In this document: piece by piece, positions 3,206 to 20,745 of the stretch | How the letters are laid out: every line of letters begins with the position of its first letter | Position numbering within the stretch: position 1 is the first letter of the stretch | Origin: Nitrospira sp. | GTDB taxonomy: Bacteria; Nitrospirota; Nitrospiria; Nitrospirales; Nitrospiraceae | Assembly (NCBI GenBank): GCA_023248215.1 | Contig: JAHFEW010000012.1 | Coordinates: 1-64,000 of the forward strand | Length of the DNA: 64,000 nt | Direction: 5' to 3' | Notes under the pieces: model-generated | Told to the model about the DNA's origin: nothing | The model's input: the letters and a program-made list of their open reading frames with translations, nothing else | Database searches by the model: none | Program-made: the position numbers and the translations under genes

Positions 3206-4846
3206 TCACGAGGCCCGTGCGGTTCGTGGAACTGAACCGGATGGGGATGACGGGTGTGGGGAGTTCCCGGTTCCCGGCGCGGATGAGTCTAGCAATGCGC
3301 GCACCGTGCGTAGCAGCACGTCTGGGGTGAAGGGTTTCTGTAGAAACGTGGTTCGATGCGGGTCCATGCCTCTATTCACGCAGATGTCGTCCAGATAGCC
3401 GGATATGAAGAGCACCCTCAGATTGGGTTTGATGACGGATAGATGTTGCGCAAGTTCGCGGCCATTCATGTTCGGCATGACCACGTCGGTCAGGAGGAGG
3501 TCCACGTGACAGTTCTGCTGGGTGGCGGTCAGACAGGCTTCGACACCGTTTTTGGCTTCGAGGACCTGATAGCCGATTTTGACCAACTCGTTCCGGACAA
3601 GGTCGCGCACACTGGTATCGTCTTCGACGAGTAGAATGGTCTCCGATCCCTGCCGAAGGCGGCCTTGGGGTTCCATAGCATGCGCCGTCAGGGCTTGTGG
3701 ATTGACGCGTGGAAAATAGAGATCGAAGGTGGTGCCATGTCCGACCTGGCTCCAGACATCGATGCCGCCTCCGCACGTAGTCACGATGCCAAATACGGTC
3801 GACAGCCCCAGTCCGGTGCCCTTGTGCTCTTCCTTCGTCGTAAAAAACGGTTCGAACAAATGCGATAGGACGTCGGCATCCATCCCGCACCCGGTGTCGG
3901 TCACGGTCAATTTGACATACTGGCCGAGCGGCAGCGGTTGGAGGTGGTGCATCGGCGTGCGTGTGAGTTCGGCCTGTGACGTTTCGATCGCCAGCAAGCC
4001 GCCGTTGGGCATGGCATCCCGGGCATTCACGACCAGGTTCATGATGACTTGCTCGAGTTGACCGGGATCAGCCTTCACATGGCCGTCGTACGGATCGGGA
4101 CGGATCACCAGTTGGATGTCTTCACCGATGAGGCGACGGAGCATACTTTCTACATTGCCGACGACCGAATTCAGCGGCAGGACTTTGGGCTCCAGGGCCT
4201 GTTTCCGGCTGAAGGCCATGAGCTGCCGAATCAAGCTTGCGGCTCGCTCTCCGGCTTTCTGCATCTCTTCAATCTTGGCGCGGATGGGATTGCCTGCGGC
4301 GAGTTCTCCCAGGAGTACCTGGCTGTGCCCCATGATCACCGTCAGCAGGTTATTGAAATCATGCGCGAGCCCTCCTGCGAGGCGGCCGACGGCTTCCATT
4401 TTCTGTGCCTGCCGGAACTGTTTTTCACTCACTCGTAGGGCGTCCTCTGCCCGTCTGCGTTCCAGTCTCTCGTCGAGATCACGTAGGGTTCGTTTGATGG
4501 ACGGCACAAGACGTCCCAAGCGTTGCTTGAATATGTAGTCGGTCGCCCCGCGTTGCATCATATCGATGGCGAATTCTTCTCCCTGCGCGCCTGAGACGAA
4601 CAAGAACGGCATGTCGGGGTGCAGGGTGCGCGTGAGGGCGAGCGCGGCGGCTCCGTCGAATCCCGGCACCGAGGTGTCGGCAAGGATGAGGCTGTACCCC
4701 TCCTGTCGCAGCGCGGCAAAAAATTCTTCGCGTGTCTGCGTCTGCTTCGGTTGGCAGAGAATGCCGGCATCTCGCAAGGTCGTGCAAATCAGTTCCGCAT
4801 CGGCGGGATTATTCTCAAGATGGATGAATCGCAGGGGCTCAGTCAT
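3206..4846 (-). CDS. Hybrid sensor kinase, REC-HisKA-HATPase-REC
   Basis: Cytosolic 546-residue protein without membrane segments. Domain order: N-terminal receiver (about 5-120, phosphoacceptor D57 in ILADTSVPG), linker helix, HisKA dimerisation domain (H162 in GLAHDFNNLL), HATPase (N box NLVVNARDAMP near 270-280, G boxes DTGCGM and GTGLGLS), then a second receiver (about 403-520, D454 in LLTDVVMPN, conserved K504). The N-terminal receiver probably takes phosphate or signal from the neighbouring CheY-like protein or kinase. It is the last of three minus-strand signalling genes, with a 35-base gap to the CheY-like gene. The output is unknown since no DNA-binding domain is attached. Confidence 0.92.
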   Translation of the reverse strand: MTEPLRFIHLENNPADAELICTTLRDAGILCQPKQTQTREEFFAALRQEGYSLILADTSVPGFDGAAALALTRTLHPDMPFLFVSGAQGEEFAIDMMQRGATDYIFKQRLGRLVPSIKRTLRDLDERLERRRAEDALRVSEKQFRQAQKMEAVGRLAGGLAHDFNNLLTVIMGHSQVLLGELAAGNPIRAKIEEMQKAGERAASLIRQLMAFSRKQALEPKVLPLNSVVGNVESMLRRLIGEDIQLVIRPDPYDGHVKADPGQLEQVIMNLVVNARDAMPNGGLLAIETSQAELTRTPMHHLQPLPLGQYVKLTVTDTGCGMDADVLSHLFEPFFTTKEEHKGTGLGLSTVFGIVTTCGGGIDVWSQVGHGTTFDLYFPRVNPQALTAHAMEPQGRLRQGSETILLVEDDTSVRDLVRNELVKIGYQVLEAKNGVEACLTATQQNCHVDLLLTDVVMPNMNGRELAQHLSVIKPNLRVLFISGYLDDICVNRGMDPHRTTFLQKPFTPDVLLRTVRALLDSSAPGTGNSPHPSSPSGSVPRTARAS

Positions 4847-4881
4847 GAGCTGTATCGGGATGAAAGTGCCTGAAGAAGGGG

Positions 4882-5349
4882 TTAGGTGGATCGGCCGGTG
4901 GCGCGGCTTGCTCCTTCAGGAGGCGGTTCGTTGATCATTCCCCAGAACACACCGAGCTCTTTGACGGCCTTGAGGAACTGGTGAAACTCGACAGGTTTCA
5001 CCACATAGGCGTTGGCCCCGAGCGCATAACTTTCGACGAGGTCCCGCTCTTCGCGCGAGGACGTGAGCATGACGACCGGGATGGGTTTCAAGGCGGCGTC
5101 GCCCTTGATGGTACGCAGGACTTCGAGCCCATCGACTTTCGGCATCTTCAAATCGAGAAGTACAACGGCTGGATTTCCCTGCAGGCGCGTCTTGAAGTGG
5201 CCACGACAATAAAGATAGTCCAGCACTTCGGCGCCGTCGTGACAGAGGATGACCTTGTCCGCGAGGTGATGTTCTTCCATCGCCGCCAGAGCCAGCTCGG
5301 CATCCCGCGGATTGTCTTCGGCTAGTAAAATAGGTTTGGAGACGGTCAT
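4882..5349 (-). CDS. Single-domain response regulator (CheY/Rcp1-like)
   Basis: A stand-alone receiver of 155 residues: acidic pocket EDN near 11-13, phosphoacceptor D66 in LLDLKMPKVDG, Thr in VVMLTSS and Lys118 in VVKPVEF. The insertion after the first strand and the DYLYCRG segment match the Rcp1 group of regulators that partner with phytochrome-like kinases. Its ATG overlaps the TGA of the upstream CHASE3 kinase, so the two are probably translationally coupled and form a cognate pair. Signal output would be by protein contact, possibly with the downstream hybrid kinase. Confidence 0.93.
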   Translation of the reverse strand: MTVSKPILLAEDNPRDAELALAAMEEHHLADKVILCHDGAEVLDYLYCRGHFKTRLQGNPAVVLLDLKMPKVDGLEVLRTIKGDAALKPIPVVMLTSSREERDLVESYALGANAYVVKPVEFHQFLKAVKELGVFWGMINEPPPEGASRATGRST

Positions 5350-6845
5350 GCTGATGGCCTCGTAATCGGGAGGCTGACGTAAAAGGTGGCGCCTTCGCCG
5401 AGCGCGCCTTCTGCCCAGGTCTTCCCGCCATGCCGGTGAATAATGCGGCGGACATTGGCCAGTCCGATGCCGGTGCCATCGAATTCATCGGCTCGATGGA
5501 GCCGCTGAAAGACTCCGAACAGTTTATTGGCGTAGCGCATATCGAATCCTACACCGTTATCACGTACAAACAACACAGCTTCCTCCTGACCGCTCTGCCG
5601 ACTCCCGATTTCGATGGTGGCCTGAGGCCGGGAGCCAGTAAACTTGATGGCATTGCCGACGAGATTCGCAAAGACCTGCCGTAACATCGCCGCGTCCCCC
5701 GTGACCTCAGGGAGTTGAGCGATTGTCCACGAGATTGCACGATCTTGCAAGTCATGTCGTAGATCGTGCAGCACTGACGCAATCAATTGGTTCAGATTGA
5801 CCGTTCCACGCAGCATTTCCTGCCGGCCCATGCGGGAGAAGACCAGCAGATCGTCGATGAGTTGCCCCATCCTGGTGGCCGACTCAGAAATCGTCTGCAG
5901 GTAGCGTTTGGCCTTGTCATCCAGCGAGACGGTCGCGGCTTTGGCCAAGAGCGAGGCATAGCCGTCGATATGACGCAGCGGGGCCCGCAGATCGTGCGAT
6001 ACGGAGTAGCTGAAGGCTTCCAATTCTTTATTGGCGGCTTCCAGAAGTTCCCCTCGACGTTGGAGTTCGTCGGCGACCCGCCGCCGTTCGGTAATGTCAT
6101 GGCGAATCAGGTAATACACGGCGGCCAGCAGAACGAACAGCAACAGGGCGCCGATGGTCAGCAGGATGATGCTGGAGCGGGTGGTCGTCGTGGATTCTAC
6201 CACGCGCTGCGCGAGGGCTCTGGTTTCGTCCTGTTCCATCTGCACTTGCAGATGCCGAGCGGAATCGAGTTCTGTCTTGGCGACCCCGGCCAAGGCCATC
6301 GCCCGCACCGACTCGAACCCGGTCTCGTTACGCAGTTCGATGGAGGCACGCTCCTTCTGAAGTTGTTGAGCGATCAATTCTTCGAGCTGGTTTACGCGTG
6401 CCCGCTGGGTGCTGATGGCGTCGGTGAGGTCTCGCAGATACCCAAGATATTCCGGTGCGCGCGCACGCAGGGTATTGTAGGAGGCAAGGTAACCGTCGTC
6501 TCCGGTGACCAAGAACCGTCGATGACCGCTCTCGGCGTCATCCATGACTTCACCGGTCGCGGCCAAAAACTGGATGAATTCGTGGCTTCGCTGGTCCTGA
6601 TGGCCGTTGCGGATGAGGACGGTCATGTTGCGGTACGAAATGGCGGATATCACCAGGATGCCGGCAAACACGAGTCCGAAGCCGGCCAGCACGCGATGTT
6701 CAATCGATCTGTTCTGAAATGTGTGAACCAACGGGGCAAGACACGACACCCGTGCCAGGATGCGCTCGCCCCATCGGGAGGCGGGATGAGAGGATTCGCC
6801 GTCGGGGTCGACGGCCTGGTGGCTGTTCGGTTCGTCCATACCCAT
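5346..6845 (-). CDS. Membrane sensor histidine kinase with CHASE3 domain
   Basis: Protein of about 499 residues. Two membrane segments (about 51-70 and 224-247) flank a helical extracytoplasmic CHASE3-type sensor; then a short linker (ITERRRVADELQRR), HisKA with H284 in YSVSHDLRAPL, and HATPase with NLVGNAIKF, DNGVGFD and GTGIGLANV. The kinase core is of the bacteriophytochrome type that uses Rcp1-like regulators, in keeping with the overlapping CheY-like gene downstream. The start is uncertain: ATG at 6845 or 6839 is likelier than a TTG at 7007 that would run into nuoN, but no strong ribosome site is visible. Signal unknown. Confidence 0.88.
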   Translation of the reverse strand: MGMDEPNSHQAVDPDGESSHPASRWGERILARVSCLAPLVHTFQNRSIEHRVLAGFGLVFAGILVISAISYRNMTVLIRNGHQDQRSHEFIQFLAATGEVMDDAESGHRRFLVTGDDGYLASYNTLRARAPEYLGYLRDLTDAISTQRARVNQLEELIAQQLQKERASIELRNETGFESVRAMALAGVAKTELDSARHLQVQMEQDETRALAQRVVESTTTTRSSIILLTIGALLLFVLLAAVYYLIRHDITERRRVADELQRRGELLEAANKELEAFSYSVSHDLRAPLRHIDGYASLLAKAATVSLDDKAKRYLQTISESATRMGQLIDDLLVFSRMGRQEMLRGTVNLNQLIASVLHDLRHDLQDRAISWTIAQLPEVTGDAAMLRQVFANLVGNAIKFTGSRPQATIEIGSRQSGQEEAVLFVRDNGVGFDMRYANKLFGVFQRLHRADEFDGTGIGLANVRRIIHRHGGKTWAEGALGEGATFYVSLPITRPSA

Positions 6846-6996
6846 ACGAGATCCGGGTGGAGTCAATTGCAGGAGCGTGGGCGTCGCTTCGTAAACTGTA
6901 GCGTGGCGCGCTGGTGACTGCAAACCGTATTCTAACAGAGGGTATTGATAAGCGAAGGGATTTGAATGAAATGGTGCGGTGAGACGGGGGCGGTAA

Positions 6997-8496
6997 CTAT
7001 CCTCCAAACGGTGTAACGGGCGGAGGAATAATAGAGGCCGAAGGGGCGACGAAATTGGAAAACATGAGTGTCGCAGCCACGGCCCAATCGAGGAACGGTT
7101 GCGGATAGATACCGATCACGAGGGTTCCGGCAAGTCCGACATAGATCACCGCCCGCAGGGGACCGGTGGTTTTAATGGGAGATGAATCGAGCGGTTCGCT
7201 GATGTACATCCTCTTGACGACGATCAAATAATAGTACATCGAAATGACGATGTTGATGAGCCCGACTGTAATCAGTGTGTAGAGGCCCTCCTTGATCGCC
7301 GCAACAAAAATATAGAGCTTGCCGATGAAGCCGGCAAGCGGAGGGACTCCGGCCAAGGACAGGAGGAAAAGTAGCATGGCAAAGGCCAGAAACGGCGAGC
7401 GTCGGTTGAGTCCGCTGTAATCTTCAATCTCATCGCTTCCCACCGCGTTGCTGATCGCCATAATGACTGCGAAGGCGCCAAGGTTCGCGAAGAGATAGGT
7501 CAGCAGATAGAACAAAATGGAGTCGGTCCCCATTTTGGTCCCGGCGGCCAGACCGATCAGCACATTTCCGATTTGCGCGATACCGGAATAGGCCAGCAGC
7601 CGTTTAATGTTTCGTTGGCTAATGGCCACGATATTGCCGTACGTCATGGAGAGAATTGAGGCCGCGACGATCAGCAATGCCCAGGCTGGTTTGAACGTCG
7701 CCAGCGCCACCAAGAACAACCGCAGCAGAATGGCGAAGGCTGCCACTTTTGGAGCGATCGACAAAAAGGCGGTCACGGGGGTGGGTGCACCCTGGTATGT
7801 ATCGGGGATCCATGAATGGAACGGAACGGCGCCGATCTTGAACCCTAAGGCCGCAAAAATGAGTAGGAAGCCGATGACGAGTCCGGTGGTCGGAGCCGCA
7901 CCGCTCATCTCCGAAAAGACCAGCTTGCCCGTTTCACCGAATACCAGGCTAATGCCGTAGGCCAACAGTCCTGCCGCAAAGACGCCCAGGATAAAAAATT
8001 TGAGCCCTGCCTCGTTCGAGGCCATATCGTCACGCAGATAGGACACCAGCACATAAAATCCAAATGTCGCAAATTCGAGTGTGACAAACAAAGACAAGAG
8101 GTCGTTGGCCGAGACCATGAACATCATGCCCAACGCCGACATGGCGACGAGGAAATAGTATTCGCCTCGAAAGAAGGAGAACCGGTGCACGTAGTCGATC
8201 GACAGAAGAACCACCAAGATTGTCGCCAACAGGATCATGACCTTGAAGAAGATGGCCAGACGATCCAGGACGAACATCTTGCCGAAGAGGGTGCCGGTAA
8301 TGCCGGTGATGTCAAACCAGGCTAAGCAGGCCAGTGTGATGGTAAGTCCCAGAACAGTGAGGTAGGCCACCTGCTCCTGAACGATCCGCTTGAAGGAAAA
8401 ATCGACGATCAGGACGACGCAGAGCCATGCGGTGAGAAACAGCTCCGGAAGCAGGAGCAGCAGATCGCTGGCTGAGAGCGTAAGGGAAAACGTCAT
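6997..8496 (-). CDS. nuoN: NADH-quinone oxidoreductase subunit N (proton pump)
   Basis: Antiporter-like membrane subunit of complex I, 499 residues with about 14 transmembrane helices. It belongs to the same superfamily as NuoL and NuoM and carries the pump-type charged residues within helices (for example the KIGAVPFHSWIPD and YSGIAQIGNV regions). It is the last gene of the nuo operon; its ATG overlaps the stop of the preceding nuoM and AAGGTGA lies upstream. In the membrane arm NuoN sits next to NuoK and the first NuoM. No terminator is visible before the signalling operon that follows on the same strand. Confidence 0.95.
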   Translation of the reverse strand: MTFSLTLSASDLLLLLPELFLTAWLCVVLIVDFSFKRIVQEQVAYLTVLGLTITLACLAWFDITGITGTLFGKMFVLDRLAIFFKVMILLATILVVLLSIDYVHRFSFFRGEYYFLVAMSALGMMFMVSANDLLSLFVTLEFATFGFYVLVSYLRDDMASNEAGLKFFILGVFAAGLLAYGISLVFGETGKLVFSEMSGAAPTTGLVIGFLLIFAALGFKIGAVPFHSWIPDTYQGAPTPVTAFLSIAPKVAAFAILLRLFLVALATFKPAWALLIVAASILSMTYGNIVAISQRNIKRLLAYSGIAQIGNVLIGLAAGTKMGTDSILFYLLTYLFANLGAFAVIMAISNAVGSDEIEDYSGLNRRSPFLAFAMLLFLLSLAGVPPLAGFIGKLYIFVAAIKEGLYTLITVGLINIVISMYYYLIVVKRMYISEPLDSSPIKTTGPLRAVIYVGLAGTLVIGIYPQPFLDWAVAATLMFSNFVAPSASIIPPPVTPFGG

Positions 8497-10148
8497 CGCG
8501 GGGTCACCTTCACAATGGCCTCGCGGGAAGTGGCCAGGGGCACAGCGGGCGAGGCGCCATGTGGACTGTTCATCGGATGCTCTGCGATCGGGACGACCTT
8601 GGTAATTCGGGCGATCAACGGATCGACCCCTGAACGGACGACCGAGTAGAGATGGCCCGGGAAAATTCCGAAGCTGATGCTGACGGTGATCATGATCAGA
8701 AGCGGCAGGCGATCGATGACTGTCACAGCATCGTGCGAGTGGCTGTATTTCTCCGCCATCGATCCATAGAACAGGCCGCGCATCATCTTGAACAAATAGG
8801 CCATAGTCAGCACGATACCCAGAACGGCGACGACGACCTGGAACGGATATTTGTTCCAGCTGCCGACGATGATCATGACTTCGGCGATAAAATTCACGGT
8901 GCCTGGCATGCCGATCGAGGCCATGCAGGCGATGACAAAAGCGGCGGAGATGAAGGGCATTCGATTGGATAGTCCCCCCAGCGAGGGGATGTCGCGGGTA
9001 TGCGTCTGGTCGTAGACCCAGCCGGCCATGGCGAACAACATCCCGGTGGCCATGGCGTGAGCGAACATATAAATGACGGCTCCGCTCAGGCTGATATAGT
9101 CGAGTGCGGCCATGCCGAGGAACACATAGCCCATGTGACTGGAACTGGAATATCCGATCACATACTTGGTGTCTTTCGCATAGTAGGCGACCAGTCCCCC
9201 ATAAATGATGCTGAAGATGCAGAGGACGGCGGCGATCGGCATGAACTCACGAGTCGTCTCGGGCAGGAGTTCGAAGGCGACGCGAATGATTGAGAAATGT
9301 CCCAACTTCATCAACACGCCGGCGTGCAGCATGCTGGTCGCTGCCGGTGCGGCCGCATGTCCGACAGGGGACCAGGAATGCAACGGCCAGATCGGGGCGA
9401 TCGACGCAAATCCGAAGAAGATCAATAGCCAGATGACCGTCGCCAGAGGGCCTGAGAAATGAGCCTGCTCGCGCAGGACCAAAATATCGAAGGTGTTGAG
9501 CCCTGAGAATTTATAGATGAGCAGAATGCCCATCAAGGCCACGACGGCAAAGGCGGAGAGAAACAAGACCAACTTCATGGCTGCGTATTCTTTGCTGTTC
9601 GCGCCAAAATTGAAGATGAAGCCGACGGAGTCCCGTTGTTTCAGGCCTTCAGGGTCTGTCATCTCCAGATACTTCTTGGTGTGACTGCCCCACATGCCTA
9701 GGAGGAGATACATGGGGATGACGGACATTTCATAGAAGAAATACAAGAAGAAGAGATCCAGCGACATGAAGACGCCGATCGTGGCGGCGGCCAGAATCAA
9801 GATCCAGATGTAAAACTCTTTAATGCGATCTTTGATGTGCCATGAGACGAATATGCCGGCGAAGAGCAGGATGGATGAGGCGAGTACCAGGGGAGTGCCG
9901 ATTCCGTCCACACCCAGGTGGAGCGAGATTCCCAACTGACGTGACCATTCAATCCGCTGGATAAACTGAAAGCCGCCTTTGAGTGGGTCGTAGGAATAAA
10001 AGAGATAGATCGAGGCGATCAAGGAGACGAAGGCGGACCCGGCCGCTATGCCTCGCACCAATGAGAGTTGCCGGTTGGAAACGAAGATCAAGGCCAAGGC
10101 CCCGGCAAACGGGGCAAACAAAATGATGAGCAGTGTATATTCAGCCAT
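8493..10148 (-). CDS. nuoM: NADH-quinone oxidoreductase subunit M, second copy
   Basis: Antiporter-like pump subunit of 551 residues. NuoM-type signatures include FFYEMSVIPMYLLLGMWG, with the conserved Glu in a helix, and the lysine-helix region APIWPLHSWSPVGH. It follows another nuoM-type gene directly (7-base gap) and overlaps nuoN, so the operon encodes four large antiporter-like subunits (L, M, M, N) instead of three. The two M proteins clearly differ in sequence, so this is not a recent duplication. The HSWSPVGHAAAP motif departs from the HTWLPDAL of the other copy. Expected to add a pumping unit to the membrane arm. Confidence 0.93.
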   Translation of the reverse strand: MAEYTLLIILFAPFAGALALIFVSNRQLSLVRGIAAGSAFVSLIASIYLFYSYDPLKGGFQFIQRIEWSRQLGISLHLGVDGIGTPLVLASSILLFAGIFVSWHIKDRIKEFYIWILILAAATIGVFMSLDLFFLYFFYEMSVIPMYLLLGMWGSHTKKYLEMTDPEGLKQRDSVGFIFNFGANSKEYAAMKLVLFLSAFAVVALMGILLIYKFSGLNTFDILVLREQAHFSGPLATVIWLLIFFGFASIAPIWPLHSWSPVGHAAAPAATSMLHAGVLMKLGHFSIIRVAFELLPETTREFMPIAAVLCIFSIIYGGLVAYYAKDTKYVIGYSSSSHMGYVFLGMAALDYISLSGAVIYMFAHAMATGMLFAMAGWVYDQTHTRDIPSLGGLSNRMPFISAAFVIACMASIGMPGTVNFIAEVMIIVGSWNKYPFQVVVAVLGIVLTMAYLFKMMRGLFYGSMAEKYSHSHDAVTVIDRLPLLIMITVSISFGIFPGHLYSVVRSGVDPLIARITKVVPIAEHPMNSPHGASPAVPLATSREAIVKVTPR

Positions 10149-10155
10149 GGTCTTC

Positions 10156-11715
10156 TTACTTCGCCGGCATGTGGATGACGCTGTCTACGGAAGCCAGTTT
10201 CGCACGATCTAGCCGATCGACGAGGGCTTGAACTGATCCGTTCATCATTCGCAGGAACGGCGAGGGGTAGAGGCCGATCCACAAGATCATGATCGACAGC
10301 GACAGCGCAATTGTGATCTCCCGCATATGCAAATCCTTGATCGCTGCCGAGACGTTCTTGGTCAGAGGCCCGAGCATCGCGCGTTCGTAATACCAGAGAA
10401 AATAGGCTGCCCCGAAGATGACGCCGAGGACTGCCACGGCTCCATACCACCATTTGGCTTTAAATGCGCCCAGGAGGATGAGAAATTCTCCGACGAACCC
10501 GTTCGTACCGGGCAGCCCGATGGACGCCAGCCCGATCAACAGGAGAAAGGTGGCTAGGAGCGGGACTTGTTTCGCAAATCCTCCGAAGGCAGACAAGTGA
10601 GTACTTTGTTGTCTGGTCGATAAGAATCCCGCCATGAAAAAGAGACCGGCGGTGCTGAATCCCAGGTTGATCATGGTCAACAGGCTGCCCTGCAGGCCTT
10701 GAAAGTTCAGGGCAAAGAGGCCGACCACGACAAAGCCAAGGTGGCTGATGCTGCTGAATGCGAGGAGGCGTTTGAAGTCTGATTGCACCAGCGCCACTAC
10801 CGCTCCGTAGAGAATCGCTGTGAGGGCCAGCACCATCACGATGGAGACCACGCCCTCGCTTTTGGAGGCATCCGGAAGCAACGGGAATGTAAAGCGAAGG
10901 AATCCATAGGTGCCCAATTTCATACCAGCCAGCATGACGGCCATGCCGATGGGGCCTTCCACCAGCGCATCGGGAAGCCAGGTGTGGAATGGGAACACCG
11001 GCGCCTTGAAGGCGAACCCCATGAACATGAGCCAGAAAATCAGAATCTGCTGGGAGAGTGGAATCGGGACGGACAGCAATTGTAGCAGGTCGAACGAGTA
11101 GACGTCGTCGAGGTGATGGGTCACGGCCCACTGGTGATAGTTAATATCGAGCAACGCGATGCCCACCAGCATGAAGACGCTTCCCAGGAGCGTGTAGAGC
11201 ACATACTTGAGTGCCGCGTAATGCCGTTCTGGTCCGCCGCCCCACAACTTAATCAGGAAATAGCTGGGGATGAGCATGAGCTCCCAGAAGACGAAGAACA
11301 AAATCAGGTCGATGGAGACAAAGATGCCGATCGTGGTGGTCTCCAGCGCCAGAAGCGCCATGAAGTAGAGGCGGACTTGGTTGCGCACCGTATCCCAGGA
11401 ATAGATGACGACCAGCACGGTCAGGAAGGCCGTGAGGCCCACAAAGAGCACACTGATGCCATCCACGGCCAAGTGGTACCCGATGCCGAGTGCCGGCATC
11501 CACCGGGCATGTTCGGCGAACTGCATCGCTGCGGAATCCGGCACGAAGCGCAGCAACACGAGGCTCGCAAGTGCGAGTTCCACCAGGGTGATGCCCAAAG
11601 CAGTCGTTTTGACGAGATCTTCGTCTTCGATCAACCAGAGGACGGCCGCCCCTGCCAACGGAAGGAAGATCAGATACGAGAGAATGGGGAACCCAAAACT
11701 GAACTCTTCAAGCAT
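10156..11715 (-). CDS. nuoM: NADH-quinone oxidoreductase subunit M, first copy
   Basis: Antiporter-like pump subunit of 519 residues, close in length to standard NuoM. Shows the conserved VFWELMLIPSYFLI helix with its functional Glu, and APVFPFHTWLPDALVEGP, the most typical NuoM signature in the window. Next come the ALVQSDFKRLLAFSSISHLG helix and a C-terminal membrane anchor. The gap to nuoL is 24 bases and to the second nuoM 7 bases. By sequence this looks like the canonical M subunit and the downstream copy like the additional one, but which sits where in the complex cannot be read from DNA. Confidence 0.95.
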   Translation of the reverse strand: MLEEFSFGFPILSYLIFLPLAGAAVLWLIEDEDLVKTTALGITLVELALASLVLLRFVPDSAAMQFAEHARWMPALGIGYHLAVDGISVLFVGLTAFLTVLVVIYSWDTVRNQVRLYFMALLALETTTIGIFVSIDLILFFVFWELMLIPSYFLIKLWGGGPERHYAALKYVLYTLLGSVFMLVGIALLDINYHQWAVTHHLDDVYSFDLLQLLSVPIPLSQQILIFWLMFMGFAFKAPVFPFHTWLPDALVEGPIGMAVMLAGMKLGTYGFLRFTFPLLPDASKSEGVVSIVMVLALTAILYGAVVALVQSDFKRLLAFSSISHLGFVVVGLFALNFQGLQGSLLTMINLGFSTAGLFFMAGFLSTRQQSTHLSAFGGFAKQVPLLATFLLLIGLASIGLPGTNGFVGEFLILLGAFKAKWWYGAVAVLGVIFGAAYFLWYYERAMLGPLTKNVSAAIKDLHMREITIALSLSIMILWIGLYPSPFLRMMNGSVQALVDRLDRAKLASVDSVIHMPAK

Positions 11716-11739: not shown

Positions 11740-13743
11740 TCAGCGTGACGAATAGCCGGTGGAACCGGTTCCGGTCCAGATTAAAAGAATGATGTGAACG
11801 AGAATAAACAATCCGGCCACGATGATGGCCGCATACTGATGCACCATGCCGGTTTGGAGTCGTCGCCATGAGCGGGCCAGTTGGTGGTTGGCATAGCCGA
11901 TAATATTCAAGAATCCGTATATGACGTGCTTTTCAGTCCAGGTAATGGCGGCCGAACTGGCGTCTGTTCCCCGATCGATGGAACGGACAAGGCCGTCGAT
12001 GATGGTTCGATCGAACCAATCGCAGAGCAGCCCCAATCGCTTTGCGGATTCCACAAACAGGGTATCGTAGAGTTCGTCGACATAGTATTTGTTGAGCAGG
12101 GTCGTGTAGACGCTGGGCATGCGTCCGGCCAGCGCATCCGCTGCTGTGGACTGGCCGCTGTAAAAATAATGCGCGAGCCCCCAGCCAAGCAGCGCGATCA
12201 CGGTGGCTGTTCCCATCAAGCCAAACATCAGGGCCGGAGCGGTGGCATGCTCCTCACCGGCTACGCCTGCTACCGAATGGAGGAAATGATGGAACCAGCC
12301 GTTTTCCGGTGGAACACCCGGAAAGCCACCGATCACAGACAGCGTGGCCAAGACCACCAAGGGGCCGATCATCACCATCGGGGACTCATGCACATGCTCG
12401 GCGGTGTGATGATCCAGCCGCGAGGTTCCATAAAATGTGAGATATGTCAGGCGGAACATATAAAACGACGTCAAGAAGGCGCCGATCGCGGCCATGCCGT
12501 AGAGCAGATAGTGCTGGTGGACGAAGGCATGGCCCATGATTTCGTCTTTGCTCCAGAACCCTGCCAAGGGCGGGATCCCTGCGATCGCAATCGTGCCGAT
12601 CAGAAAGAGCGTGTGTGTCCAGGGAATCTTCGACTTCAAGGCGCCCATCTTGCGGATATCCTGTTCCCCTGACAGGGCATGGATGACAGATCCGGCGGAC
12701 AGAAAGAGCAAGGCCTTAAAAAAGGCGTGGGTCATCAGGTGGAAGACCGCGGCCGTATAGGCGCCGAGGCCGCATCCCAGGAACATATAGCCGAGCTGGC
12801 TCACGGTGGAATAGGCCAAGACCCGCTTGATGTCGGTTTGGACCAGCCCGATCGTCGCTGCGAAGAGCGCCGTGAGTCCGCCGATCCAGGCCACGGTCGT
12901 CATGGCAACAGGTGACAGGTCAAAAATTGCGTGATTGCGGACGATCATATAGACGCCGGCTGTGACCATGGTGGCGGCATGAATGAGGGCGCTGACCGGG
13001 GTTGGACCTTCCATGGCATCGGGCAGCCAGGTATAGAGCGGGAGTTGCGCCGATTTTCCAACGGCGCCGACCAACAGGCAGAGCGCGATGGCCGTGGCCA
13101 TTTCAGGCGACAGTTGAGCGGCATTCTGCATGACCTGGGTGTAGTCGAGCGTCCGGAAGTTGACGAACACCAGGAAGATCGCCAGGAGAAATCCTGCATC
13201 CCCGATTCGATTGACCACAAAGGCCTTCGTCGCCGCTTTGGCTGCGGAGACTTTGTCGTAGTAGTAGCCGATCAGGAGATAGGAGCAGAGACCGACGCCT
13301 TCCCATCCGATGAACAGGACGACATAGTTGTTGCCCATCACCAGCAACAACATCGAGACCATGAAGAGGTTCATGTACACGAAGAATCGTGTGAAGCCCG
13401 ATTCTCCATGCATATATCCCACAGAGTACACGTGGATCAGGAACCCCACCCCCGTGATGACCAGCAGCATGATGCAGGTCAGGGGATCGATCAAAAAGGC
13501 GAGATTGATCGTGAGATCGCCGCCGAAGATCCATTTGTACGCGACCACTTCACGGGCAGCTCCCGTTCGCAGGGTGTCCGTGAAGACCGCCAGCGCACAA
13601 AGGAATGAGAGCAGGACGGAACCCCATGCAAACCGGTGCGCCAAGTCGTGGGAATACCGGTGTCCAAAGAGGCCATTGACAAGGACGGCCATCAACGGAA
13701 ACAGGGGAATCAGTTTGACGATCAGATCGATTGAGTCGGACAC
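11740..13743 (-). CDS. nuoL: NADH-quinone oxidoreductase subunit L
   Basis: Distal antiporter-like pump subunit of complex I, 667 residues. It shows the NuoL signatures GWEGVGLCSYLLIG and LPLYTWLPDAMEGPTPVSALIHAATMV (first part quoted within limits of the motif) and a long amphipathic C-terminal part ending in a final membrane anchor (VAGLFILVHIILLIW). It is about 50 residues longer than the E. coli protein (613), which fits a lengthened lateral helix able to clamp a fourth antiporter-like subunit. The start is GTG, just after the nuoK stop, with AAGTGG upstream. Function is inferred from family membership. Confidence 0.95.
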   Translation of the reverse strand: MSDSIDLIVKLIPLFPLMAVLVNGLFGHRYSHDLAHRFAWGSVLLSFLCALAVFTDTLRTGAAREVVAYKWIFGGDLTINLAFLIDPLTCIMLLVITGVGFLIHVYSVGYMHGESGFTRFFVYMNLFMVSMLLLVMGNNYVVLFIGWEGVGLCSYLLIGYYYDKVSAAKAATKAFVVNRIGDAGFLLAIFLVFVNFRTLDYTQVMQNAAQLSPEMATAIALCLLVGAVGKSAQLPLYTWLPDAMEGPTPVSALIHAATMVTAGVYMIVRNHAIFDLSPVAMTTVAWIGGLTALFAATIGLVQTDIKRVLAYSTVSQLGYMFLGCGLGAYTAAVFHLMTHAFFKALLFLSAGSVIHALSGEQDIRKMGALKSKIPWTHTLFLIGTIAIAGIPPLAGFWSKDEIMGHAFVHQHYLLYGMAAIGAFLTSFYMFRLTYLTFYGTSRLDHHTAEHVHESPMVMIGPLVVLATLSVIGGFPGVPPENGWFHHFLHSVAGVAGEEHATAPALMFGLMGTATVIALLGWGLAHYFYSGQSTAADALAGRMPSVYTTLLNKYYVDELYDTLFVESAKRLGLLCDWFDRTIIDGLVRSIDRGTDASSAAITWTEKHVIYGFLNIIGYANHQLARSWRRLQTGMVHQYAAIIVAGLFILVHIILLIWTGTGSTGYSSR

Positions 13744-13744
13744 G

Positions 13745-14047
13745 TTACCACTTCAACAGATTCATTTCATCGACGTTGGTCGAAATCTTGCCGCGGAAGA
13801 CGACAATGATGATGGCCAATCCAATGGCCGCTTCTCCCGCCGCGATGGCAATGATGAAGAGCGCCACGATCTGGCCCTGCATGGAGTCGAGATAATGGGA
13901 GAAGGCGACCAGGTTGATGGTGGCCGCGTTCAGCATGATTTCGACGGACATCAGCACGATAATGAAATTGCGGCGGATCAGCACACCGAGCAACCCCGTC
14001 GCAAACAACACGGCACTCACGGCCACATAGGCGGACAAGGGGATCAT
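13745..14047 (-). CDS. nuoK: NADH-quinone oxidoreductase subunit K
   Basis: Small membrane subunit, 100 residues, three transmembrane helices, with the conserved pair of Glu residues (in LMSVEIMLNAA and AAGEAAIGLA) that form part of the central proton path. Its ATG overlaps the nuoJ stop (ATGA) and it ends one base before nuoL starts, so translation is tightly coupled. Length and sequence are normal for the family. Confidence 0.97.
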   Translation of the reverse strand: MIPLSAYVAVSAVLFATGLLGVLIRRNFIIVLMSVEIMLNAATINLVAFSHYLDSMQGQIVALFIIAIAAGEAAIGLAIIIVVFRGKISTNVDEMNLLKW

Positions 14048-14568
14048 ACGTCGCGCCTCGTCTGGATTGATTTGGGAGCCTTGGCCAGGACGATGGCGCC
14101 GACGATTGCCCCCGTCAGAAACACGCCGATAATTTCAAATTGCAGCAAGTATTCACTGAACATCTTGATGCCGATGGCATGGGCATCTCCGTTCTGCAGG
14201 ATGGCTGCCGTGGAGGCATCGCCTTTTGCACCACTGAAAGGCGATCGCACCAACAAGAACAACAGATACAGCAATCCGATGGCCGCGGGCGCCAGCAGGT
14301 ACGGGGTCTTGGCGTGGAAGTAGCGGTCGTCCGTCTTGAGGTTCAACAACATGAGGACGAACAAGTACAGGACCAAAATGGCTCCCGCGTAGACAATCAC
14401 TTGGACGGCCCATAAGAACTCGGCGTTCAGCATGATGAACAGACCCGAGACGTGGAGCAGCAGGGCCAGGAGCGCCAGGCCGCATTGCACCGGGTGCTTC
14501 AGCGACACGGTCAGAATGCCGGCGACAATACTCACCACTGCGAAATACGCGAAAAACACGAAAGCCAT
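14044..14568 (-). CDS. nuoJ: NADH-quinone oxidoreductase subunit J
   Basis: Membrane subunit of about 174 residues with five predicted helices, including the conserved AVQVIVYAGAILVLYLFVLML helix (given here in part as VQVIVYAGAILVLYLFVLM) whose bulge rotates during turnover. The ATG at 14568 is chosen; a TTG at 14583 that would overlap the nuoI stop is an alternative. Lies between nuoI and nuoK as in most complex I operons. Confidence 0.95.
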   Translation of the reverse strand: MAFVFFAYFAVVSIVAGILTVSLKHPVQCGLALLALLLHVSGLFIMLNAEFLWAVQVIVYAGAILVLYLFVLMLLNLKTDDRYFHAKTPYLLAPAAIGLLYLLFLLVRSPFSGAKGDASTAAILQNGDAHAIGIKMFSEYLLQFEIIGVFLTGAIVGAIVLAKAPKSIQTRRDV

Positions 14569-14579
14569 AACGGTACGAT

Positions 14580-15167
14580 TCAACTCAAATGTTTGGGTTG
14601 TGACTGTGTGGGTTTGAGAACCGACTGCGGAAAGTAATAACGATACTCCCGGCTCTCCTCCGAATTCTTTTCTTGGTTATGGGCATACAGATATTTTTTG
14701 GCGTCCTCAAGATGGCGTTCGCCTATCTCGTAGAGCCGCTTCTTGTCGAAGAGGAGGGTGCGCTTGTCGTGGGTGGAGTATTCGTACATTTTGGTCATCG
14801 CCAGCGCATTGACGGGGCAGGCTTCCACGCAATACCCGCAAAATACGCATTTGGTGATGTCGATATAGAACTCAGTGGCGTAACGCTGCAGAGGACGGTT
14901 GGGGTCTTCATGGCTGATCACCTTGATGCAACGGGAGGGGCAGGCCGCTTCGCAGAGGTCGCAGCCCACGCAGCGCTCATGTCCGTCGTCGTAGCGAAGC
15001 AGTCCTAAGGCGCCGCGGTGGCCGTCTGGGATGGTTCGCTGTTCACGCGGATATTGAAAGGTGATGGGGCGATGGAACATGTGTTTGAAGGTGACCTTCA
15101 TGGCGCCCCAAATTTCGTAGAACAACGCCGCTTCAAGAAGTTTTTTGGTCCACGCCCCGACACTCAT
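14580..15167 (-). CDS. nuoI: NADH-quinone oxidoreductase subunit I, 2x[4Fe-4S]
   Basis: Peripheral-arm ferredoxin-like subunit of 195 residues that hands electrons to NuoB. Two complete cluster motifs are visible: CVGCDLCEAACP and CVFCGYCVEACP. The N-terminal helix (LLEAALFYEIWGAMKVTFKH) docks on the membrane. ATG at 15167 has GAAGGTGG upstream. In most operons nuoH stands between nuoG and nuoI; here only 45 bases separate nuoG from nuoI, so nuoH is absent from its usual place. Confidence 0.96.
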   Translation of the reverse strand: MSVGAWTKKLLEAALFYEIWGAMKVTFKHMFHRPITFQYPREQRTIPDGHRGALGLLRYDDGHERCVGCDLCEAACPSRCIKVISHEDPNRPLQRYATEFYIDITKCVFCGYCVEACPVNALAMTKMYEYSTHDKRTLLFDKKRLYEIGERHLEDAKKYLYAHNQEKNSEESREYRYYFPQSVLKPTQSQPKHLS

Positions 15168-15212
15168 TCTCACCACCTTCTGACGACATCAAAAAGACGA
15201 ACGAGCTTACTC

Positions 15213-17998: not shown

Positions 17999-19246
17999 TC
18001 ATCGATCGCATTCCCCCATGACGATATCGTATGTGCCGAAGATCGTCACGGCGTCGGCGATCATGTAGCCTCTCGACATATGATCGAAAGCGCCCATATG
18101 GATAAACGATGGAGCGCGGATCTTCAGCCGGTACGGCTTCCCGCCGCCCGTGCTGACGATATAGAAACCCAACTCACCTTTGTGTGCCTCTGTCCCGCAA
18201 TAGATTTCTCCCGGCGGGGCGTTAAACCCTTGAGAGAACAGTTTGAACTGCTGAATCATGGCTTCCAGGTTTGTGAACACCCGTTCCTTTGGGGGAAGGG
18301 TCACGCTGGGCACGTCCGCCATGATCGGCCCATCCTGGATTTGCTCTAGACATTGGCGGATGATCTTGACGCTTTCATAGAGCTCCTGCACGCGAATCCA
18401 GTACCGATCGTAGGTATCACCGTTCTTTCCGACCGGGACACTGAACTCACATTTGGGATAGGCGGAGTAGGGTTCGTATTTGCGAAGGTCGTAATCGACG
18501 CCCGATCCACGGAGAGTCGGTCCGCTTAACCCAAAACTCAAGGCATCCTCTGCCGAAATGACCGCCACACCCTTAGTCCGCGCGAGCCAGATGCGGTTCT
18601 TCTCCAGGAAGATCACGTATTCATCGATCTTCGGCGGGAAGTAATCCAGGAATTGCTTGAGTTTGGCGAACAGAGACGGCGTGAAGTCCCGCTCCACGCC
18701 GCCGATGCGATACCAGCTGGTCGTCAGACGGGCGCCGCAGAGTTCATCGAACCAATCCAATAGAATTTCGCGATCCCGGAAGCAATAAAAGAAGACGGTC
18801 ATCGCTCCGATGTCGAGCGCTTGCGTGCCGAGCCAAAACTGATGTCCGATAATGCGCTGGATTTCTGCGACGATGGTGCGCAGGTACTCGGCGCGATCCG
18901 GCACGGTGATGTTCATCAATTTTTCGACGGCGCGACAATAGGCAAAGTTGTTGTACATCGCGCACACGTAATCGAGACGGTCGGTGTGTGGAATGAACTG
19001 ATGATAGGTCCCTTCCTCGGCCAGCTTTTCCACGCCGCGATGGAGAAAACCCATCACCGGCGTCGACTTGACCAGTCGCTCTCCCTCCAACTCGAGAATA
19101 ACCTTGAGGACTCCGTGAGTGCTGGGATGCTGCGGTCCCATGTTCAGCAGGAGCTCTTCGGTCCGGAGCGTTGGAAGCGTCGCGCTTTCAGGATGCTCGG
19201 GGTCGACCTTATAGACTGTGGTTCGTTGGTCTTCGGACTGTGCCAT
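17999..19246 (-). CDS. nuoD: NADH-quinone oxidoreductase subunit D
   Basis: Quinone-site subunit of 415 residues, homologous to the large subunit of NiFe hydrogenases. Begins the conserved core with NMGPQHPSTHGVLKVI and ends with IVMGECDR, the typical NuoD C-terminus in which the hydrogenase metal-binding cysteines are gone. The conserved HRGVEKL and TDRLDYV segments are present. Separate from nuoC (not fused), 28 bases downstream of it. Works with NuoB to reduce quinone at the base of the peripheral arm. Confidence 0.97.
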   Translation of the reverse strand: MAQSEDQRTTVYKVDPEHPESATLPTLRTEELLLNMGPQHPSTHGVLKVILELEGERLVKSTPVMGFLHRGVEKLAEEGTYHQFIPHTDRLDYVCAMYNNFAYCRAVEKLMNITVPDRAEYLRTIVAEIQRIIGHQFWLGTQALDIGAMTVFFYCFRDREILLDWFDELCGARLTTSWYRIGGVERDFTPSLFAKLKQFLDYFPPKIDEYVIFLEKNRIWLARTKGVAVISAEDALSFGLSGPTLRGSGVDYDLRKYEPYSAYPKCEFSVPVGKNGDTYDRYWIRVQELYESVKIIRQCLEQIQDGPIMADVPSVTLPPKERVFTNLEAMIQQFKLFSQGFNAPPGEIYCGTEAHKGELGFYIVSTGGGKPYRLKIRAPSFIHMGAFDHMSRGYMIADAVTIFGTYDIVMGECDR

Positions 19247-19274: not shown

Positions 19275-19772
19275 CTAACGGGCTGGCTCATCTAAAAACT
19301 CGAAGGTATCGCGCCATCCTCTGCCACGGAGCGGAAAATCTTTGCGCAAGGGGTAGCCTTCTTCATACTCGTCCGGCATCAAAATGCGGCGAAGGTCCGG
19401 ATGGTTGCGAAACCGGATCCCCATCATGTCGTACACTTCGCGTTCCATAAAGTCGGCGCCCTTCCAAATGTCGGTCAAGGAGTCCACAACAGAGTCCGAT
19501 TCAGGAACCCGTGTTTTTAGGCGGATGCGCTGACGTGTCCGAATCGAATAGACCTCGTACACCACCTCGAAGCGCTCCTCGTCATCCGGCCAGTCCACCG
19601 AGCTCACGTGGACGATGTAATCAAACGTCAAGGAGGGGTCGTCCCTCAGAAATCGGGCCACGTCATGCAAGGCCTCCCGCTTCACGGTGACGGCAACATC
19701 ACCGCGCCACTCCGCCGCCTTGATGAAGGCGCCGGGGAAGGTTTCCTCAATGCGTTTCGCCAGGTGACTCAT
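19275..19772 (-). CDS. nuoC: NADH-quinone oxidoreductase subunit C
   Basis: Peripheral-arm structural subunit, 165 residues, without cofactors. The 30-kDa subunit signature is seen in EREVYDMMGIRFRNHPDLRRILM (quoted in part: EREVYDMMGIRF), followed by the C-terminal GYPLRKDFPL. Lies between nuoB and nuoD with short gaps of 18 and 28 bases. Confidence 0.97.
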   Translation of the reverse strand: MSHLAKRIEETFPGAFIKAAEWRGDVAVTVKREALHDVARFLRDDPSLTFDYIVHVSSVDWPDDEERFEVVYEVYSIRTRQRIRLKTRVPESDSVVDSLTDIWKGADFMEREVYDMMGIRFRNHPDLRRILMPDEYEEGYPLRKDFPLRGRGWRDTFEFLDEPAR

Positions 19773-19790: not shown

Positions 19791-20318
19791 TTAGACCTTC
19801 AGGGCGTCCTTCACTTCTTTCGGTTGGGTGAGGAACACACGCTTTTGCATGATGCGCTCTTGGAGTTTCAGAATGCCATCAAATAGGGCTTCTGGAGTCG
19901 GGGGGCAACCCGGCACATAGATATCGACCGGCACGAATCGGTCGACCCCCTGCACCACGCTATAGCTGTCGTAAATATTGCCCGATGTGGCGCACGATCC
20001 CATGGCGATCACGTACTTCGGCTCCGGCATCTGGTCATAAATCTTGCGAATGACCGGAGCCATGCGGCGGCAGACGGTACCGGCAACGATCATAAGGTCA
20101 GATTGGCGAGGGGAAGCCCGAAACACCCCGGCTCCATACCGATCCATGTCATATCGCGAAGAGACGGCGGCGATCATCTCGATGGCACAACAGGCCAGAC
20201 CAAATGTCATGGGCCACAACGAACCCTTTCGGGCCCAGTTGACGGCCTTCTCGACGGTCAGAGTAATGACATCGGGACTACCGTCCTTATCGCGGCCTCC
20301 CAGTTGAATCAATCCCAT
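19791..20318 (-). CDS. nuoB: NADH-quinone oxidoreductase subunit B, N2 cluster
   Basis: Subunit of 175 residues carrying the terminal N2 iron-sulfur cluster next to the quinone. Cluster ligands are visible as the adjacent cysteines in GLACCAIEM, plus GTVCRRMAP and [10 protein letters not shown]; the conserved GSCATSG follows the family pattern. Its ATG overlaps the end of nuoA by ten bases, an arrangement expected for coupled translation. Confidence 0.98.
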
Positions 20319-20692
20319 TCCAAAGCTCCTTTTCGCCAGGCATAGACATAGGCGACGAGGAAGAGTCCGATGAAGATCAACATTTCCACGAGACCGATGA
20401 GACCGATCTTGTTGAAGACGATGGCCCAGGGATACAGAAAGATGACTTCCACATCGAAAATCACGAACAGCATGGCAAAGATGTAGTACCGAACGGGAAA
20501 CGGCATCCGAGCATCAGAAAACGGTTCAGATCCGCACTCATAGGTGGACAGTTTTTCCGACTCAGGATACTTCGGTTGAACGAAATAGCTGATCAATAGG
20601 GTGCCCACGCCAAACGCAAAAGCGATGAACACGAAGAGCAGAATAGGAAAATATCGGCTCAGGTACTCTAAGAGGAGCTCGGAACCAGCCAT
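20309..20692 (-). CDS. nuoA: NADH-quinone oxidoreductase subunit A
   Basis: First gene of the nuo operon; membrane subunit of about 127 residues with three helices. The loop [21 protein letters not shown] contains the conserved ECG motif, and [15 protein letters not shown] is the second family signature. The ATG at 20692 (MAGSELL) is preferred to an upstream TTG; a weak GAGG lies about ten bases before it. A candidate promoter is about 55-85 bases upstream. Confidence 0.96.
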
Positions 20693-20745
20693 GGGCTCGA
20701 ACCTCAACGGGTTTGAGGGCTTATAGGGCTTATAAGGAGGTCGGA

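Follow-up and report, generated by a model that had tools for sequence, protein, structure and literature searches.

The stretch of Nitrospira sp. DNA considered here ("the window": 64,000 nucleotides, positions 1 to 64,000 of contig JAHFEW010000012.1 in assembly GCA_023248215.1) carries a complex I operon with two NuoM genes, that is, a 2M complex I. On the minus strand, from 20707 to 6997, the list of open reading frames (ORFs) and hidden Markov model (HMM) searches give the order nuoA-B-C-D-G-I-J-K-L-M1-M2-N (Table 1). An earlier, sequence-only reading had placed L, M, M and N in one operon, with the two M genes adjacent (8493-11715) and strongly diverged, and so they are: M1 and M2 lie 7 bases apart between nuoL and nuoN and are 28% identical over aligned columns; nuoN overlaps M2 by 4 bases. 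The same gene order was recovered in 20 of 20 regions from other genomes (one of them, the Manganitrophus-like locus L078, has two L-like genes in place of one), so the L-M-M-N arrangement is not chance. Missing from the operon by HMM search are nuoE, nuoF and nuoH, and none of 149 2M loci (G, I and M2 occur jointly in 84 of them) contains an ORF that matches NuoH best. A nuoH hidden between nuoG and nuoI, its site in E. coli, is ruled out by a gap of only 36 bases.

It is nearly certain that the locus encodes the clade 3-type 2M complex I of Nitrospira species, an already known system. The sequence-only reading had named Nitrospira among the known holders of the arrangement, and the operon matches the published type (N. 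moscoviensis CI_1; Chadwick et al. 2018 via PMC6606698) in its duplicated NuoM, its lengthened NuoL, its lack of NuoE, NuoF and NuoH, its separate NuoC and NuoD and its formate dehydrogenase (FDH)-like NuoG; no anatomical difference was found, and the available text of PMC6606698 does not mention the M1/M2 residue pattern described below. All cultivated Nitrospiraceae and UBA8639 genomes encode 2M (PMC12342949), and the window locus is orthologous to named Nitrospira loci. Among the matches listed, the nearest named relatives of M2 are Nitrospira metagenome-assembled genomes (96% identical). The best 80 of 357 relatives, a scan that does not bound the spread, bear Nitrospira, Nitrospiraceae, Nitrospirae/Nitrospirota, Nitrospirales, Nitrospiria, Manganitrophaceae or Troglogloeales names with two exceptions, labelled Nitrosospira and Nitrospinota, whose identities fall in the Nitrospira-like range. 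An M2-type match (at least 75% identity, E 1e-112 or lower) is present in 143 of 147 genomes of the family, the other four (G022, G049, G121, G125) having ordinary NuoM-like matches only. A sample of 148 genomes of the phylum yields an M2-type match (at least 56% identity) in 39, all of the same class, and four more at 35-36% identity; 105 have no match at E 1e-60. Searching plasmids with M2 matched 388 records, all below 60% identity (32-35% among the 25 rows listed). As for another 2M type in Nitrospirota, none of 18 divergent-NuoM regions, several of them cut by contig ends, has two NuoM genes directly adjacent; in one (L216) two NuoM-like genes are separated by an L-like gene.

Both copies are true NuoM, on the evidence of HMM scores, two trees and a fold search. 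Against the NCBIfam model NDH_I_M (cut-off 263.8 bits) M1 scores 527.9 and M2 413.7 bits; the best MrpD-type model gives M2 146.4 bits. An 80-row tree makes M1 and M2 one clade each (100/99 and 100/100) and places M1 among canonical NuoM. In a 48-row tree that included NuoL, NuoN and Mrp-like and hydrogenase-type rows from this genome and its relatives, all NuoM, M2 among them, form one group (95/90) with those other rows outside, and M2 is sister to canonical NuoM plus M1 (97/92). The M2 branch is long and drew a long-branch-join warning on the 80-row tree; its exact depth is unsure. The predicted structure of M2 (built from a 41-row alignment that included 11 M1 rows) is a full NuoM fold with a mean predicted local distance difference test score (pLDDT) of 85.5, and its best 23 Foldseek matches are complex I/NDH chains of the M/ND4/NdhD type, ahead of MrpD. 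The sequence-only reading had proposed a phylogeny of both copies with an eye to membership in another antiporter family; by HMM, trees and Foldseek, neither M lies outside NuoM. The divergence of M2, whose mean identity to canonical NuoM is 33%, would be expected if one copy came from the Mrp, hydrogenase or another antiporter family and lay in the operon by chance; given the scores, the tree grouping and the Foldseek order, and with long branches as the caveat, that origin is very improbable. More improbable still is a recent duplication that left M2 redundant or decaying, which nothing favours beyond the presence of two copies: the split is deep, each clade having 100% bootstrap, and M2 is kept across order and class with its reading frame open at full length. 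Across 10,011 pairs of loci, M1 averages 73% identity and M2 78%, and M2 is the more conserved in 92%; the comparison is descriptive, because the pairs are related by descent and include duplicate loci. M2 is therefore not decaying, and deep split and conservation together rule out a recent redundant duplicate.

NuoL, single and genuine (743 bits against a cut-off of 556), has the lengthened form published for 2M complex I (PMC6606698, PMC9040806). Counted between two anchors in the C-terminus, the segment that contains its lateral helix HL has 76 residues in 86 of 87 NuoL rows from 2M loci (102 in the other one), 51 in the canonical NuoL of the same genome and 47 in E. coli. The 25-29 residues gained, each adding 1.5 angstrom of helix, amount to ~38-44 angstrom, roughly the width of an antiporter-like subunit. 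The NuoL model has a mean pLDDT of 80.3, with moderate confidence (blocks of ~60-75) over the HL stretch, which is predicted to be an unbroken helix; the acids D578 and D583, just before the extension, and E604 within it are invariant in 37 of 37 rows. An HL aspartate of P. denitrificans contacts TMH7-His239 of ND4 (PMC9802314); every scored M1 and M2 retains the corresponding His, which by numbering offset is E. coli H241. HL, we infer, docks both M subunits, and M1 and M2 very probably both stand in the membrane arm, with an HL grown by about one subunit width running along them as a strap.

What, then, might the second NuoM do? The residues bear on this question (E. coli NuoM numbering, unless the window subunit is named; 130 distinct M2 rows and 143 M1 rows, each set with 1 gap at position 234). 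The canonical pump has an ion pair between a Glu of transmembrane helix (TM) 5 and a Lys of TM7, and in M2 this pair is incomplete: E144 is kept in 130/130 rows, while K234 is Ile in 129/129 scored. (The patterns used to fetch named loci, KEYAAMK and LDLFFL, exclude position 234.) The TM7 lysine is present in window NuoL, NuoN and M1, in every scored M1 row (142 of 142) and in all 49 canonical NuoM rows (48 from Nitrospirota, and E. coli; H248 is present in 48 of these 49). M2 has also lost D246 and L244, has His at position 259 in all 129 scored rows, and has a TM5-TM6 segment of 37-43 residues, compared with 17 in E. coli NuoM and 12-13 in M1. Kept in window M2 are E140, K281, H338, H364 and E423 (E. 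coli E144, K265, H322, H348 and E407), and across the M2 rows K265 (129/129), H322 (130/130) and E407 (129/129). Window M1 keeps the equivalents of E144, K234, K265, H322 and E407 (K265 in 142/142 scored M1 rows) and has Leu at the H248 and H348 positions; H348 is replaced in 135 of 143 M1 rows. No mention of the missing TM7 lysine of M2 was found in the available parts of the literature searched, and the word "lysine" is absent from the 2M papers PMC9040806 and PMC6606698; Chadwick 2018 lies outside that search, and priority is not claimable.

Taken pairwise, the copies are reciprocal. Pairs were counted at those 142 of 149 loci where M1 and M2 each occur once at 440 aa or longer (seven without a full M1 or M2 were left out); some of the 149 are the same genome region twice, the window and L024 for example, and the distinct pairs number 138. 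Positions 234, 248 and 348 read K, L or M, L in M1 and I, H, H in M2 at 135 of the 142 loci; at the other seven they read K, H, H in M1 and I, Y, D in M2. The state of R369 goes with that of H248, and H248, H348 and R369 are kept by exactly one copy per locus in 138/138 distinct pairs: by M2 in Nitrospirales and near relatives, by M1 in the Manganitrophaceae-type lineage. H248, H348, H367 and R369 are present in Nitrospirales M2 and mostly gone from its M1 partner, and M1 and M2 together make up one full canonical residue set. The seven reversed loci (L078, L162-L166 and L168) group as a single clade among the M1 rows of the tree and again among the M2 rows, so the M1/M2 contrast is one deep split. 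As a separate observation, Nitrospirales M1 is two residues shorter than canonical NuoM between TM7b and the TM8 lysine (window M1 residues ~250-265); Manganitrophaceae-type M1 is not.

The operon must find its NuoH elsewhere. The genome has 12 matches to PF00361 and two to PF00146 (NuoH type), one strong (contig C173, 427.8 bits) and one weaker (C129, 172.7 bits), the latter on our own reading hydrogenase-type. C173 bears a canonical complex I (locus L019) with E, F and H present and C and D fused; that operon would most simply supply NuoH, and the simplest reading is of one NuoH common to both complexes. PF00146 is matched in 142 of 147 family genomes (108 of the 109 near-complete ones), at E 1e-100 or lower in 136; G095, 93% complete, has no match, and G073, a genome in a single contig, has one. 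PF01512 (NuoF type) has four matches in the genome and 0 in the window. The lack of nuoE and nuoF fits the ferredoxin link drawn in the sequence-only reading, and ferredoxin in place of NADH as electron carrier is a published proposal (PMC6606698), by which this complex would exchange electrons with ferredoxin. In nitrite oxidisers it would probably run backwards, the proton-motive force driving electrons from quinol to ferredoxin for the reverse tricarboxylic acid cycle, a direction hypothesized in PMC12342949, PMC6606698 and PMC7784846.

The reading that we prefer takes the locus as a clade 3-type 2M complex I running in that direction, with M1 and M2 probably forming one unit: M1 would give the switch, M2 in Nitrospirales would give the canonical N-side uptake residues, and lateral transfer would follow the kept E144-K265-H322-E407 axis. 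As a whole (identity, architecture, direction and the role of M2) it has a probability of roughly 0.6. The balance tips somewhat towards M2 not being a stand-alone canonical pump, because its Glu-Lys switch is without the TM7 lysine and because M1 and M2 share one canonical proton-path set; for the same reasons the fifth proton is unproven and somewhat less likely, and the extra proton pumping named in the sequence-only reading is doubtful, the residues giving mixed evidence. Mutants help to weigh the residues (P. denitrificans ND4 residues are matched to E. coli by numbering offset). K234, K265 and E144 are listed as essential in E. coli NuoM (PMC5061711), and with E407K the stoichiometry falls to 1.5 H+/e- (PMC9271201). 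For P. denitrificans ND4, both the Glu-Lys pair and the terminal Glu are essential; H246F (H248) abolishes catalysis, and R367H (R369) behaves as wild type (PMC9802314). K234 and H248 consequently carry weight, H348 and R369 little. Several points weigh against the preferred reading. ND4 H346Q (H348) retains four protons per NADH (PMC9802314). The reciprocal pattern represents about two lineages rather than 142 independent events. Window NuoN has Tyr at position 248 and NuoL has no His there, so the loss of H248 in M1 need not block uptake. M2, with E144, K265, H322 and E407 kept and His275 gained, could pump by a modified route. And the case for this particular complex is built from genes and predicted models.

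The published alternative, M2 as an independent fourth antiporter-like pump that brings the total to five protons per two electrons (PMC6606698, PMC9040806), with the TM7 lysine replaced, for instance, by His275 or water, is a possibility to be taken seriously even if we hold it to be the less probable side of the question. The kept E144, K265, H322 and E407 equivalents, the strong conservation, the NuoM-like fold and an HL grown by about one subunit width all speak for it; it must contend with a lysine that window L, N and M1 and all 49 canonical NuoM rows keep, that NuoM/ND4 of E. coli and P. denitrificans reportedly cannot do without (PMC5061711, PMC9802314), and whose place is taken by Ile in all 129 scored M2 rows. 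Does M2, at the other extreme, play no part in proton transfer and act as a spacer, structural or regulatory, its charges kept only for the electrostatic axis? The loss of K234, D246 and L244 and the private TM5-TM6 insertion would suit a spacer, but uptake residues retained in Nitrospirales M2 and mostly lost from M1 would not be expected in one, and we think it quite unlikely. A more specific history is offered tentatively, and is doubtful as it stands: M2 lost the TM7 lysine after an ancient duplication, H248, H348 and R369 were lost from M1 (Nitrospirales) or from M2 (Manganitrophaceae), and the pair moves one proton, or M2 relays laterally. If pumping is split in this way, no fifth proton is gained, and the energetic case for ferredoxin reduction needs another basis.

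Table 1. Features of the 2M complex I operon and of its M1, M2 and NuoL subunits (window coordinates)
Feature	Position	Strand	Basis
NuoN, 499 aa; E133, K217, K247, K395 (canonical charged residues) kept	6997..8496	-	HMM, alignment
NuoM2, extra NuoM-family antiporter-like subunit, 551 aa	8493..10148	-	ORF, HMM, predicted fold
M2 His275, TM8 (E. coli NuoM L259 position); M2-specific	9324..9326	-	alignment
M2 Ile250 (E. coli NuoM K234 position, TM7 ion-pair lysine)	9399..9401	-	alignment
M2-specific insertion between TM5 and TM6 (residues ~155-185)	9594..9686	-	alignment
NuoM1, 519 aa	10156..11715	-	ORF, HMM
M1 Leu251 (E. coli H248 position; P. denitrificans H246)	10963..10965	-	alignment
M1 Lys237 (E. 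coli NuoM K234)	11005..11007	-	alignment
NuoL, 667 aa, lateral helix HL lengthened	11740..13743	-	HMM, alignment, predicted structure
Unbroken predicted HL helix, NuoL 552-629 (before it helices 532-541, 543-550)	11857..12090	-	predicted structure
~25-residue HL extension (NuoL ~584-609), holds invariant E604	11917..11994	-	alignment
NuoK; E36 and E72 kept	13745..14047	-	HMM, alignment
NuoJ	14044..14583	-	HMM
NuoI, 4Fe-4S protein	14580..15176	-	HMM
NuoG, FDH-alpha-like, 901 aa	15213..17918	-	HMM, alignment
NuoD, unfused to NuoC	17999..19246	-	
NuoC	19275..19772	-	
NuoB	19791..20318	-	
NuoA	20309..20707	-	

Some further features of the operon and genome can be set beside these. The best PDB relatives of NuoG are Fds-type FDH alpha chains. 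Relative to Fds alpha, ARVCHSPT has become ARYGHLNY and LRGQNNVQG has become VTEEINEQG, with Gly371 at the active-site Cys position and Thr at the Arg position; the Cys/Sec and Arg that FDH alpha has there we take to be catalytic residues. NuoG was considered as an active FDH on its high FDH score and rejected on the changes at these two positions: an active formate site is, to judge by the sequence, unlikely. NuoG is about as long as the NuoG of E. coli and the canonical one of its own genome, and is "enlarged", as the published type has it, only in comparison with shorter NuoG types. In the NuoN of 2M operons, Gln occupies the E. coli NuoN H305 position in 126 of 128 rows. Directly downstream of nuoN, at 3206-7007, the minus strand carries a gene for a CHASE3 histidine kinase, its start overlapping the nuoN end, as well as genes for a response regulator and a receiver-domain hybrid kinase; they are possibly co-transcribed with the operon, in redox or energy sensing. 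The genome has three POR_N-type oxidoreductases above cut-off, and elsewhere a stand-alone NuoF-type gene (L231, G000:C6, 3166-4542, minus strand; it is among the four NuoF-type matches), two genes from a malate-dehydrogenase-type gene; by analogy with the nuoF-ferredoxin cluster of N. moscoviensis, its product may be a soluble partner.

Complex_I_3 of Ca. Manganitrophaceae (PMC9040806) has homologous M1 and M2 (50% and 55% identity in L078), with M2 Ile at 234; unlike the window operon it has two MrpD-like subunits in the place of NuoL, and in this type M1 keeps H248, H348 and R369, with Tyr, Asp and Leu or Met in M2. The Chloroflexi 2M clusters (Chloroflexus, Anaerolinea; PMC8004040, PMC7117926) likewise have two NuoM genes between nuoL and nuoN; their origin is, by the title of Chadwick et al. 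2018, reportedly convergent, and the C. aggregans cluster includes nuoH. Rhizobia, which the sequence-only reading had counted among 2M holders, do not belong there: their "green" complex I also has four antiporter-like subunits, but gains the extra one through two MrpD-like proteins replacing NuoL, and there is no second NuoM (PMC9040806). (The complex I operons at L212, L213 and L214, in three Nitrospirota genomes, combine one NuoM with two L/MrpD-like genes and resemble the green type outside rhizobia.) HycC of E. coli formate hydrogenlyase (FHL) resembles M2 in lacking the lysine, with Leu at the K234 position, while the E144 and K265 equivalents are kept, but belongs to another complex, and HycC point mutants are without effect on FHL activity (PMC5061711). 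The C173 complex I shares homologous subunits with the 2M operon, and differs in its one NuoM, its E, F and H, its fused CD and its shorter HL.

2M complex I is the usual explanation for how nitrite-oxidising Nitrospira could reduce ferredoxin for CO2 fixation, and that explanation rests on a fifth proton inferred from gene count. The most useful new aspect of the locus is the residue pattern, which opens the fifth-proton hypothesis to testing and leaves it less secure. One can think of M2, without its TM7 lysine, as a natural mutant for testing whether each antiporter-like subunit pumps independently: should M2 prove not to pump, energy balances that credit the 2M complex with five protons are wrong; a pumping M2 would mean that pumping can do without the Glu-Lys switch.

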